A stretch of DNA of 64,000 nucleotides from an uncultured Alphaproteobacteria bacterium. Its GTDB lineage: Bacteria > Pseudomonadota > Alphaproteobacteria > Geminicoccales > Geminicoccaceae. Position numbers and translations under genes: made by a program. Location of the stretch: NCBI GenBank assembly GCA_937926445.1, contig CALBAK010000046.1, positions 1 through 64,000 of the forward strand, read 5' to 3'. The notes below the pieces were generated by a model. It searched no databases, was not told the DNA's origin, and worked only from the letters and a program-made list of their open reading frames with translations. Positions 13,377 to 20,169 of this stretch are shown here, piece by piece (position 1 is the first letter of the stretch; each line of letters starts with the position of its first letter).

Positions 13377-13522
13377 GCTCTCCCTCGCATCGAACAGCGC
13401 GCCCGCGCTTCTAGGCCGGGCCGGACGCCGCCGCCAGAGCCGACTCCGGCGCCCCCGGCACTCGCCTCGACGGCGCGGTGTGCAGGCGCTAGCGTCCACC
13501 CGTCGCGATCGCGGAGACATCG

Positions 13523-14818
13523 ATGCGTACGAAGAGCAGGAATCCGGAGACCATCGTTCTCCACGCCGGCTATAGGAGCGATCCCACCACGACGGCGGTC
13601 GCGGTGCCGATCTACCAAACGACCTCTTACCAGTTCCATTCGCCCGAGCACGCGCGGCGCCTGTTCGCGCTCGAAGAGCTCGGCAACATCTACACCCGGA
13701 TCATGAACCCTACCCAGGCGGTGCTCGAGGAACGCGTCGCCCAGCTTGAGGGTGGCGTGGCGGCGCTCGCGCTCGCCTCGGGACAGGCAGCCTCGCTCTT
13801 CGCGGTCCAGAACATCTGCCACGCCGGCGACAACTTCGTCTCCTCGACCGACCTCTACGGCGGCACCTGGAACCTGTTCCAGAACACGATGATGAAGACG
13901 ATGGGGATCGAGGTCCGCTTCGTCGATCCCTCCGATCCCGAGAATTTCCGGCGGGCGACCGATGCCCGCACACGCTGCTATTATGCGGAGACGCTTCCCA
14001 ACCCCAAGCTCAACGTGTTCCCGATCGCCGAGGTGGCACGGATCGGCCGCGAAATGGGCGTACCGCTCATCGTGGACAACACGGCAGCCCCGGTGATCTG
14101 CCGGCCGATCGAGCACGGTGCCGCCATCGTCATGCACTCGACGACCAAGTACATCGGCGGGCACGGGACCTCGATCGGCGGAATCATCGTCGACGGCGGC
14201 AATTTCGACTGGGAGAAACACGCCGACCGCTTCCCCATGCCCAACCAGCCCGACCCCTCCTAGCACGGCGCGATCTGGACCCAGGCGGTGAAGCCGCTCG
14301 GCCCGATCGCCTACATCGTCAAGGCGCGTGTCACGCTCTTGCGCGACATAGGAGCCGCGATGTCGCCGTTCAACGCGTTCATGTTCATTCAGGGCCTCGA
14401 GACCCTGCCGCTGCGGATGCGGATCCATTGCGAGAACGCCACACGGGTCGCCGAGTGGCTCAGCCGCCACCCCAAGGTCGAGCGGGTCATTCATCCCTCG
14501 CTCCAGACCGGCGAGCTCAGGCGCCGCGCCGACCAGCATCTGCGGGGCGGCTACGGCGCCCTGGTCGGCATGGAGCTCAAGGGCGGTCGCGAGGCAGGTC
14601 GTCGGTTCATCGACGCGCTGCAGATGTTCTACCACGTCGCCAACATCGGCGACGTCCGCTCGCTCGCCATCCACCCGGCGACCACCACTCACAGCCAGCT
14701 CGGCCCCGAGGAGCAGCTCGCGACCGGGGTCTCGGAGGGCTATGTCCGATTGTCGATCGGGATCGAGCACATCGACGACATCCTGGCCGACCTCGACCAA
14801 GCGTTGGCGGCCGCGTGA
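13523..14818 (+). pseudogene. metY: O-acetylhomoserine sulfhydrylase-type enzyme with in-frame amber stop
   Basis: Reading through, this is a complete PLP Cys/Met-metabolism enzyme of 430 residues: VLHAGYRSDPTTTAVAVPIY, GNIYTRIMNPTQAVLEERVA, the PLP lysine in HSTTKYIGGHGTSIGG, and the C-terminal IHPATTTHSQLGPEEQLATG. A TAG at 14261-14263 interrupts PDPS*HGAIW; homologues have Tyr there (SYHG), so TAC or TAT to TAG is one base change. The frame is the same on both sides and no other lesion is visible. The 246-residue N-terminal product would keep the PLP lysine but lose the C-terminal domain. Either a recent nonsense mutation or a sequence error. Confidence 0.88.
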
Positions 14819-15210: not shown

Positions 15211-15945
15211 TCAGCGCTGCACGAGGACCTGGTTGGTGACCTCGTCGACCCCGAACAGGGTCCAAACATTGGCCTCGGCCATACGCCGCTTCCCTTCGCT
15301 CGGCACGACGCCGGCGAGCGTCACCCGCCCGTCTCGCACCGTGACGTGGATCCGGCTCGCGTCGAGGAAAGGGTCTTTCTCGAGCGCAAGCCGACAGGCA
15401 TCGGCAATGGCTCCGTCCTCGTCCTCTTCCGGTGGATCGACGGCGATACCGTCGACAACGTCACGAACGCCCGGGACCCGCCAGGCGAGCAGCCCCGCCG
15501 GTCGCTTGTAGTCGAGCCCGGGAGCGGTGCCGCCGAGGGTCGAGATACCGTCGCGAACCTCGATCTCCAGCCGGCCGCGGACATCGATCGGTGAAGCGCA
15601 GATCGGTTTCGCTTACTCCCATCTGCGTGCGAAGAGTGTGACCTCTGCGAACGCGGGCTCGGCAATCGACGCTCGGGCCACGTGATCGCGGATCTCCCGG
15701 TCGCCCATGACGACGGCCGGTCGTACGTGCAGCCGGTCGACGATGGCGCGCACCTCGGGCACCGAGGCCACGGCCCGAAGTACGCGCTTCTTGGTCGCGA
15801 CACCGTCGACCTCGCCTTCGATCGTGAGCGTGCCACGGTCCCAGGCCGATTGGATCTCGGGGTGCCGAGCCTCCCGACCGGGTACACTCTGCAGCCAGGC
15901 GCGGGCCTCCTCGAGGATCTCCGAGACGAGTCGCTTACTCGTGAT
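15211..15945 (-). pseudogene. tandem BON-domain stress protein, lost start and internal stop
   Basis: Read as one frame of 244 codons this gives two or more BON (PF04972) domains: RGTLTIEGEVDGVATKKRVL with VASVPEVRAIVDRLHV, then RGRLEIEVRDGISTLGGTAP with VPGVRDVVDGIAVDPPEEDE, then IHVTVRDGRVTLAGVVPSEG. A TAA stop sits at 15613-15615 (codon 111), between domains. The expected start is ATC at 15943-15945, next to a GAGG site; ATG to ATC would be one change, and no other start precedes the first domain. BON proteins bind membranes or are osmotic/stress induced. It lies directly after the broken DUF2267 gene. Confidence 0.82.
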
Positions 15946-15975
15946 CGCCCTCGAATACGAGTAGCGGGGTGCGGC

Positions 15976-16427
15976 CTAGATCGCCGCACGCCGCGCCCAT
16001 TCCGGGAAGAGTGCGCGCAGCTCGGGGGTAGGGCGTGGATGACTTTGCTCACCTGTCCCGGGTCGATCCGGGCGGCGAGTACCTCGAGGACGCCCTGCAC
16101 GACCGCCTCGAGATCGGCCGGCGGCTCGCGGGCGAAAACCTTCGCCACCTTCTCCAGGAACTCTTCGACGTGCCGTTCGCGGCTCGGGGTGCCGGCAGGG
16201 TGCCACTCTTCGTAGTAGAAGCCACGGATCAGCATCGGCAGCTGCGCGCCCAGATGGACGGCGAGCTCGGCCGGGAGCCGATCGCGGAGCGCATGCAGCG
16301 TCCCCCGCAGGGCCAAATAGGCGAAGTGGCGATCGTCGCTGTTCAGCCGGTCCTGAATCGCCTTCAGCCAGAGATTGGTCTGCTGGACGGTCGTGTCGAA
16401 AACCTCGAGCCCGGTCGCGGACATCAT
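15976..16427 (-). pseudogene. DUF2267 protein with a frameshift near the C-terminus
   Basis: About 150 codons of the DUF2267 family (PF10025): VFDTTVQQTNLWLKAIQDRL, YLALRGTLHALRDRLPAELA, HLGAQLPMLIRGFYYEEWHP and VSKVIHALP. Then a run of five G on the plus strand (16024-16028) is one base short, and the family ending PELRALFPEWARRAAI continues in another frame to the TAG at 15976. Without the shift the protein would be complete. AGGAGACG precedes ATGATG. An FNR/FixK-type box lies 52 bases upstream of the start. Because the lesion is in a homopolymer, a sequencing error is possible here. Confidence 0.82.
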
Positions 16428-16478
16428 CGTCTCCTCCGATTTCCCACGCCAGGCTAGCCGAGATCCGCGGGGGCGCGC

Positions 16479-16492
16479 TTGATGCAGATCAA
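16479..16492 (-). promoter_or_regulatory. FNR/FixK-type binding site upstream of the DUF2267-BON operon
   Basis: TTGATGCAGATCAA is a perfect match to the FNR/Anr/FixK consensus TTGAT-N4-ATCAA. Its centre is about 60 bases from the DUF2267 start, compatible with a class II activator position for a leader of about 17 bases. It implies low-oxygen control of an operon that now looks broken. Confidence 0.7.
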
Positions 16493-17512: not shown

Positions 17513-17923
17513 CTAATAAGACAGCATGGGCGGCAGGTTCTTGGCCTGCTCGATCCAGCCCGCCACCATCTTCTCGGCCGGCACAGCGCGCGCGAGCTTC
17601 CGTGCGGCGTTGACTTCGGCCATTTTGGCCGCGAGATTGCGAGCGACCCTCTGCTTCAACTCCTTGACCGTGTCGACACCGGCCGCCTCGAGCAGTTCGG
17701 CATATTGCTTGCCGACCCCTTTGATCCGCATGAGGTCGGCCATGTTGGCCCACTTGAGAAGGCGCGCCTCGTCGATGCCCGTGCTCTGCGCCAGGACCTT
17801 GCGACCCTTCGGATCGGCGCAGGCCTTCAAAAGATCGGCCGTGGTCGCGATCTGCGCTTCTTGTAACTTTGCCGCATAGGTGGGTCCGATACCCTCGATC
17901 TCTGCGATCTTGTAATTCGCCAT
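17513..17923 (-). CDS. DUF4332 helix-hairpin-helix protein
   Basis: A 136-residue DUF4332 (PF14229) protein with two helix-hairpin-helix segments: KIAEIEGIGPTYAAKLQEAQ and ADLMRIKGVGKQYAELLEAA. Such segments bind DNA non-specifically in repair and topology proteins, and here they form most of the protein. The C-terminal part (NAARKLARAVPAEKMVAGWI) is helical. Start ATG at 17923. It is upstream of the HlyU-family gene. DNA binding is inferred from the motif; no specific partner is visible. Confidence 0.85.
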   Translation of the reverse strand: MANYKIAEIEGIGPTYAAKLQEAQIATTADLLKACADPKGRKVLAQSTGIDEARLLKWANMADLMRIKGVGKQYAELLEAAGVDTVKELKQRVARNLAAKMAEVNAARKLARAVPAEKMVAGWIEQAKNLPPMLSY

Positions 17924-18018
17924 CGGATCCCCCAGACTCGCCCGGTCGATGCGCCCAGCTCCCGCGTTTTGCGACCAAAGCCGGCGCCGTGCAAGGTGGA
18001 CACGCCAAGAGCAGGAGA

Positions 18019-18823
18019 GTGACCCCGCGTCCCGACGTCGAGCTTCGCACCGATGCGTCGACCGGCATTCTCCTGTCGCTCGTCGCTTACGCCCTCTTCA
18101 CGCTCGTGGACTCGGCCATCAAGACTCTGGGCGGACGCTACCACGTCGTCCAGTTCGTTTTCTTCAACGCGCTGTTCGCTTTCACGACGGTCACCCTGAT
18201 CGCGCTCTTCCGCGGGCGGCTCGCCGGGATCGCCAGCCCGCAATGGCGGCTCCATTTGTTGCGTTGGGCCATCGTATTGCCCGGCGGGCTCGCGATCTTC
18301 CGGGCCTATCCGCGCACGCCTCTAGCCGATGTCTATGCCATTCTTCCGCTCTTCATGACCGCACTCGCGGTTCCCATCCTCGGCGAGCGGGTCGGCTGAC
18401 GCCGCTGGTCCGCCGTGCTCGTGGGGTTCTTCGGCGTCCTGATCATGCTGCGACCGGGCTCCGGGCTATTCGGCGCAGCGGCCCTCGCGGCTCTGTTCGG
18501 CGCCCTTGTCCACGCCTGCAACATGCTCCTCCTGCGCCGTATGCGCGGGGTCGATCCGCCCGAGGTCTTCGGCATCTGGGGCAACGGTTTGACGCTGCTC
18601 GCTACCACGCTCGCCCTGCCGCGGCTCTGGCGGACCCCCTCGCCGGATGATCTGGCCCTGCACGCTTTCGCCGGGATCGTGGCAGACAGCGGGTTCCTGC
18701 TCCTCGTCGCGGCCTATGGCCGCGACCATGGTCGGTCCCGCCGTCGTCGTGGCGAGCGGCCTCTACATCTGCCTCTACATCTTCCACCGCGAAGCCGTAC
18801 GCCGACAGGAAGCGAGGTGGTGA
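18019..18823 (+). pseudogene. EamA/DMT-family transporter remnant
   Basis: Starts at GTG after AGGAGA. The first EamA half is well kept (GILLSLVAYALFTLVDSAIK, DVYAILPLFMTALAVPILGE) up to RVG, where TGA at 18397-18399 replaces the Trp that homologues have in GWRRWSAVL. The frame then continues as RRWSAVLVGFFGVLIMLRPG and LLRRMRGVDPPEVFGIWGNG. After VAAYGR (about 18723) the frame changes and only the family end ATMVGPAVVVASGLYIC remains, ending in TGA at 18821. About 30-40 codons of the second half are missing. Three lesions make this a clear pseudogene. Confidence 0.88.
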
Positions 18824-20010
18824 GCGGCAGAACACCGCCTGCGGAGGATCCCGTTCTCGGCCCCGTCCTACTCCCAGCGGTGGCCCAGCTCGTCTCCCGG
18901 GGTTCGCTCCACTACGCCTTCGCCCTGGTGATCGGCCCGCTCGAGCTGAACTCGGCTGGTCGCTGACCGAGCTCACGGATGCTCCGCCCCCGGGGCTTCC
19001 AACCACGGCCGCGGCCCCGCCCCTGGCCGGTCGAGCGATTGACCGGTTCGGTGGTCGGCTGCCGATGAACGGAGGCTCGCTCGGCGCCACGCTCCTGTTG
19101 CTCGCCTGGGCCGCGGTCTACCGCCTCCAGCTCTTCTGTTTCGTGTAGATAGGCTTCGGCGCGACCACGTCGTTCGTCCTCTACGACGCGATCTTCGCGC
19201 TACTCGCCCGAGCGCCGGTTGCGACCTACCGGCGGGCGGTCACGGTCGCCACACTCGTGGCCCGCTTCGCGAGCACCGTCTTCTTTGCCGTGGTGCACAT
19301 CGCGATCGAGGCGCTCGGCTGGTGCGGTGCGCTCGTCCTCTCGGCTTTCCTCGACCTCGCGATCTCCGGTTCCGTTCACATTCTCGTGCCGCCCCGGCTC
19401 CGCCGGGCAGGGCGGCGAGCCGCCGAGGCGCTCGCGCCGGCGCCCACGACCGTGTGCGAGACGGCACGCGGCCCGGCCTTCTGGGGCATTCTCGTGGCCG
19501 TGTTTGCGGACGCGACGTTGTTCTGTAGAATTGTGTCCACATCGTGCCGAATTCTCCTGGGACGCGGCTTCGCGCTCGAGACGATCGTGACGGTGGCCGC
19601 CCTGGTCGGGCCCGTACAGGCCGGGGTACGGCTTCTGTGTCTGCCTCGAGAGCAGGCTCTCGTTGCGCGGGTCGGCGCCGATCGCGGCCGCCCTCTCGGT
19701 CCCGGGTATGGTGGCACTCGCCCGAGCCGAGCCCGGCTCAATCCTCTTCCGGCTCTTCCCGTTCGACGACGCCGGCGACGGTACGACGACGATCGTCCGG
19801 GCCGTCGCGATCGCCGAGCTCGTGAGCCACGTCTGCCTCGGCACCGTGAACGGTTCGATCGCGCCGCCGCCCCTTGCCGGAACGGCCCTGGTGCCCGTCG
19901 CCGCCGCCCGGCTCCAAGGGGGGGGGTCTCCGGCCATTGCGGCGCCGTGCCGGCCGTGCTCTTCCTGCCGGCCCTCGCGAGCCTCGCGGGGCTGGCCCGG
20001 ACGGCCTCTC
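18820..20010 (+). pseudogene. MFS transporter remnant with several frameshifts
   Basis: Begins with GTG in a GTGA overlap with the end of the EamA remnant, so the two were probably one operon. Fragments of a 12-helix MFS carrier appear in shifting frames: VSRGSLHYAFALVIGPL, then ELGWSLTEL (shift near 18945), PLAGRAIDRFGGRL, FV stop (TAG at 19156-19158), GFGATTSFVLYDAIFALLAR, VTVATLVARFASTVFFAVVH, GRGFALETIVTVAALVGPVQ, TTIVRAVAIAELVSHVCLGT, and after a run of nine G (19918-19926) GAVPAVLFLPALASLAGLAR. It is the most decayed gene of the window. Boundaries are approximate. Confidence 0.8.
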
Positions 20011-20169
20011 GACCGTGCTCTTGCCGATCGACCGGGGTGAGCGGCACGTGGCCGCCCACCCCGGTTCCCGCAGCAGATCCGATCCAAAGCGTCACGCGCC
20101 AGGAATCTGAATTGCCGGACCGACCCATCACCGTGCATCAATGCTGCGCGTATTACACGGATAGCGGCT

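Follow-up and report, generated by a model that had tools for sequence, protein, structure and literature searches.

The question raised by this locus is why a perfect FNR-type box should stand in front of two genes that both carry lesions. The window (the whole stretch of 64,000 nucleotides that was analysed) lies on contig 46 of a 3.71 Mb draft genome (120 contigs, 98.6% complete), termed G000 here, which was compared with five congeners (G001 to G005), giving six genomes. The initial annotation had described a dead BON/DUF2267 stress operon and had read the surviving box as a sign either of the recent loss of a low-oxygen or dormancy response or of another role of the transcript. The answer is probably a small operon of a Geminicoccaceae genus, comprising box, -10 element, DUF2267 and BON and likely to be controlled by FnrL, which is decaying in this one genome. 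Judged from the sequences, a probable FnrL regulon seems here to be undergoing gene loss that is recent and of the ordinary kind.

On the minus strand, the elements follow one another in the order FNR box, 22 nt, TAGCCT, GGAGGA and ATGATG. The box (TTGATGCAGATCAA, 16479 to 16492), recovered by pattern scan, is the intact palindrome TTGAT-N4-ATCAA that had been reported. The -10-like hexamer TAGCCT, a putative promoter element, occupies positions 16451 to 16456, and GGAGGA, as read from the sequence the likely ribosome-binding site, positions 16432 to 16437. In class II FNR-activated promoters the -10 element lies about 22 nt after the box; here, the palindrome is present and so is the 'TA' of a -10 element approximately 22 nt past it. 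Within the window, the box is the sole match to the FNR pattern at up to one mismatch (0.35 expected), and at least one such match was found in 30 of 100 shuffles, so that the bare count in the window is unremarkable. In the whole genome, five perfect sites were found, compared to none for the reversed control pattern. The box stands above chance because of its conservation rather than because of the window count: all ten specified bases are invariant in the six genomes, as is the 'TA' of the hexamer at the same spacing, compared to 2 of 82 flanking columns in an ungapped comparison. The remaining four bases of the hexamer vary among the six genomes. A second FNR-like pattern at about 17721 to 17734, which is included in the genome-wide box tallies, was set aside as probably a false site; its bases are codons for LMRIK within DUF4332, and it is perfect in G002, G004 and G005, with two mismatches in G000.

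Comparison of the orthologous loci showed that the relatives have kept what is damaged here. A perfect FNR box precedes an intact DUF2267 gene in all five congeners, and an open BON gene lies beside DUF2267 in four of them, where it would be read through downstream of DUF2267. The fifth, the single-contig genome G005, yielded no BON match anywhere, while box and DUF2267 are kept (L013, L049). In an unrooted tree of 11 genes with the topology G000, ((G001,G003),G002), (G004,G005) and support values of 99 to 100, G005 is the sister of G004, which has an open BON; the losses of BON in G000 and G005 are therefore independent. DUF2267 was matched in 24 of the 60 genomes searched (G000 included), among them G000 and all five congeners. 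The pairing with BON had been taken for a general operon type, which was not supported: a homologue of the window BON was found in none of 15 other loci from the DUF2267 search, with flanks of at most 1.5 kb, some of them cut by contig ends. Within the genus, DUF2267 thus emerges as a probable target of FnrL that is conserved together with its box, in G005 even in the absence of BON, and hence as a candidate low-oxygen effector. The Pfam entry of the family names no function.

A matching regulator is encoded in the genome. The initial annotation depended on an FNR/FixK protein, and one of the FNR class was found (L036, G000:C65:86240-86458), with FnrL as its best NCBIfam match at 181.9 bits, below the equivalog cut-off of 300 of that model. 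Its N-terminal cysteines align with those of an FNR of known structure, and it has an E..SR helix, which we take to be the FNR signature. Targets of FnrL/FNR in alphaproteobacteria comprise ccoN, hemN and a peroxidase, and these regulons use the same palindrome and spacing as the box described here. Two of the four other perfect boxes in the genome fit this pattern, one located between ccoN (TIGR00780) and a DUF2189 gene and one before hemN (TIGR00538); in the congener G002 a box adjoins a di-haem peroxidase gene. The third (G000:C105:1910-1923, L053 at 1910) is situated at the start of a 269-aa gene, possibly encoding a lipoprotein, for which no Pfam or NCBIfam match was obtained at E 0.001, and the fourth lies inside reading frames of unclear meaning. 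DUF2267 as a target sets this locus apart from the known FnrL/FNR regulons; the literature listings and abstract openings consulted contained no paper on it. The claim of frequent low-oxygen induction for such operons likewise found no backing in these listings and openings. It would be predicted for the genus that an oxygen-labile FnrL-type regulator occupies the box, at about -41.5, and thereby switches on DUF2267.

The BON gene, identified by profile search, extends from 15211 to 15975 on the minus strand. Like the BON-domain proteins of PF04972 it contains BON-like stretches, three in number, of which one passes the cut-off alone, one only together with its neighbours and one remains below it; unlike them, it is interrupted and has no start. 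Translation and alignment with the congeners confirmed the internal TAA (15615-15613) in the frame 15975-15211, and all four congener copies are open and free of the disabling lesions. Going upstream from the first conserved residues, no in-frame ATG, GTG or TTG is encountered before the next stop. The loss of a usable start was thus borne out, but the ATC at 15943 to 15945, previously named as the former ATG, is a plausible old start that alignment cannot prove, since the first seven to nine residues differ between the congeners. On sequence grounds, BON appears to be a true pseudogene of recent origin.

The damage to DUF2267 is of a different kind. The open frame begins at 16427/16424, and the part before the break (16029 to 16427, minus strand) scores 111.9 bits with the PF10025 profile, compared to a gathering score of 29.8, which places the protein in this family. 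As had been noted, the frame is lost in a G-run, which is C5 on the coding strand (G5 on the plus strand) at 16024 to 16028. The run is one base shorter than in G002; the comparison of this homopolymer covered five of the six genomes, G003 not fitting the search pattern. At the break, 15 codons of the expected gene are still to come, and these last 15 residues (ELRALFPEWARRAAI) with their TAG stop (15978-15976) are still present out of frame at 15976 to 16023. A profile of the six DUF2267 proteins of the genus matched the solved family member TTHA1432 (PDB 2ysk) over 142 positions (E 6.3e-47); the window protein differs from it in losing the frame 15 residues before the end.

These observations bear on whether the DUF2267 product might still function despite the break, so that the box would still drive a working gene and the loss would be confined to BON. 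This is a tentative possibility, compatible with the decay of the operon as such. The Pfam profile is covered from position 2 to 116 of 122, and in the structure predicted for the G002 protein (mean pLDDT 71.7; 43 to 72 over five models) the break and what follows it take in no more than two short helices, 134-137 and 141-147. DUF2267 also shows no relaxed constraint, as described below, and G005 retains box and DUF2267 without BON. However, the shifted frame stays open for 368 aa, and a foreign tail of more than 200 residues would usually destabilise a small protein, and the C-terminal end missing here is largely common to the congeners. The break could also be real and bypassed, if polymerase or ribosome slipped on the C5 run and full-length DUF2267 were still made from the FnrL promoter, with only BON lost; this is scarcely credible. 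From the sequence, the break either arose very recently or results from faulty assembly, and for DUF2267 alone such an error is quite possible; the domain may still work in this genome.

The two genes had been regarded as equally dead, a view that the substitution patterns do not support. Private amino-acid changes amount to 23 of 150 in BON of G000, compared to 5 to 8 of 132 to 135 in each of four congeners; for DUF2267, they number 4 of 106 in G000 and 0 to 4 of 102 to 106 in each of the five congeners. With branch lengths shared from ten control genes, omega of BON was 0.126 on the G000 branch and 0.064 elsewhere (LR 15.5), while that of DUF2267 was 0.029 on both. The shared-branch-length model was adopted after models with free branch lengths had given no signal for BON (LR 0.00). 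The p-values of these models are loose, since synonymous sites are saturated and since control genes deviate on the G000 branch as well (g7518 upwards with LR 22.7; DUF2076 and g21557 downwards with LR 18.0 and 11.9), and other lineages deviate too, both in BON and in DUF2267. A clearly broken EamA gene had no raised omega either (0.056 on the G000 branch, 0.069 elsewhere), and the missing signal is therefore no proof that DUF2267 is alive. If omega equals 1 after loss, the shared-branch fit leaves BON free of constraint for about 7% of the branch, or approximately 0.07 substitutions per site, in support of the recent loss proposed earlier.

Over such a span, the 12 promoter sites would survive unchanged without selection with a probability of about 0.43, falling to 0.09 at 0.2 substitutions per site. 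The intact box is consequently weak evidence for a new role, because it would often survive by chance over the inferred neutral time, and it calls for no special explanation. It is very improbable that the transcript now serves another purpose, for instance as a regulatory RNA or as the 368-aa fusion protein, and keeps the box under selection. The intact box and -10 element, the long shifted frame and the low survival at 0.2 substitutions per site would agree with such a role; against it, long chance frames are common in the window sequence and in the congeners, and survival is far from rare at the shorter time derived from BON. In the decaying operon preferred here, BON without start and with its in-frame TAA would have drifted over a short part of the history of the lineage, and the box would persist for having served DUF2267 until just now, or for still doing so. 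What stands of the earlier interpretation is the conserved FNR-type site, the FNR-class regulator, the dead BON and the recent loss; no support was obtained for equal death of both genes, for the need of a special explanation of the box or for the general operon type. Over short times, a promoter site can be expected to outlast some of the genes it serves, and its survival does not by itself indicate a new function.

Several neighbouring genes are broken as well. An O-acetylhomoserine sulfhydrylase-like gene (13508 to 14818) carries one in-frame TAG (14261 to 14263), across which it is 91% identical to G002, the sole match among the congener stretches compared; a frameshift considered for this MetY-like gene was rejected in favour of the stop. 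In the region from 17990 to 20100, an EamA-like transporter gene with a TGA at 18397 to 18399 and a damaged 3' part is followed by a heavily broken transporter gene at about 18.9 to 20 kb, both of which are open in G004 and G005.

An assembly or binning error, with both operon genes intact in the living cell, would account for the lesions in another way and is considered unlikely. The genome is a draft, and what disrupts DUF2267 is one base of a homopolymer, in a gene that shows no relaxed constraint and has a preserved tail. In BON, by contrast, the stop is of the substitution type, a start is lacking, and changes are in excess at positions that the congeners conserve. Earlier stop scans had been swamped by wrong-frame ORFs. 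A scan of 58 conserved segments (62,292 of 84,000 bases) detected 15 in-frame stops in G000, six of them with an identity of 0.6 or more to either side. Three of the six (43348, 46670 and 60958) fall within the first 28 query columns and were discounted as probable 5' extensions; the remaining three (14261, 15615 and 18397) all lie within 4.2 kb. The controls were not clean: the filter was passed by two of seven stops in G005, of which one lay past the 5' end of the G005 ORF itself and the other close to the end of a query, and by three of 19 in G003, where the queries were weak or in the wrong frame. A frame-break scan gave nine rows for G000, three for G003 and six for G005, mostly at gene edges, and missed the DUF2267 break. 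DUF2076, the gene at 17.2 kb and DUF4332 are open between the broken genes. Local clustering of breaks with open genes between them fits decay better than scattered error, with the reservation that the controls were not clean.

Outside the genus, boxes were sought at 22 loci, in 21 of which a match placed the start of DUF2267 (L018 had none). In three of the 21 (L014, L016 and L017), a near box was equalled by at most one of 300 shuffles, and the other 18 fell below that. These three loci belong to three other genera of the family and have near-perfect FNR-like boxes 60 to 81 bp before DUF2267.
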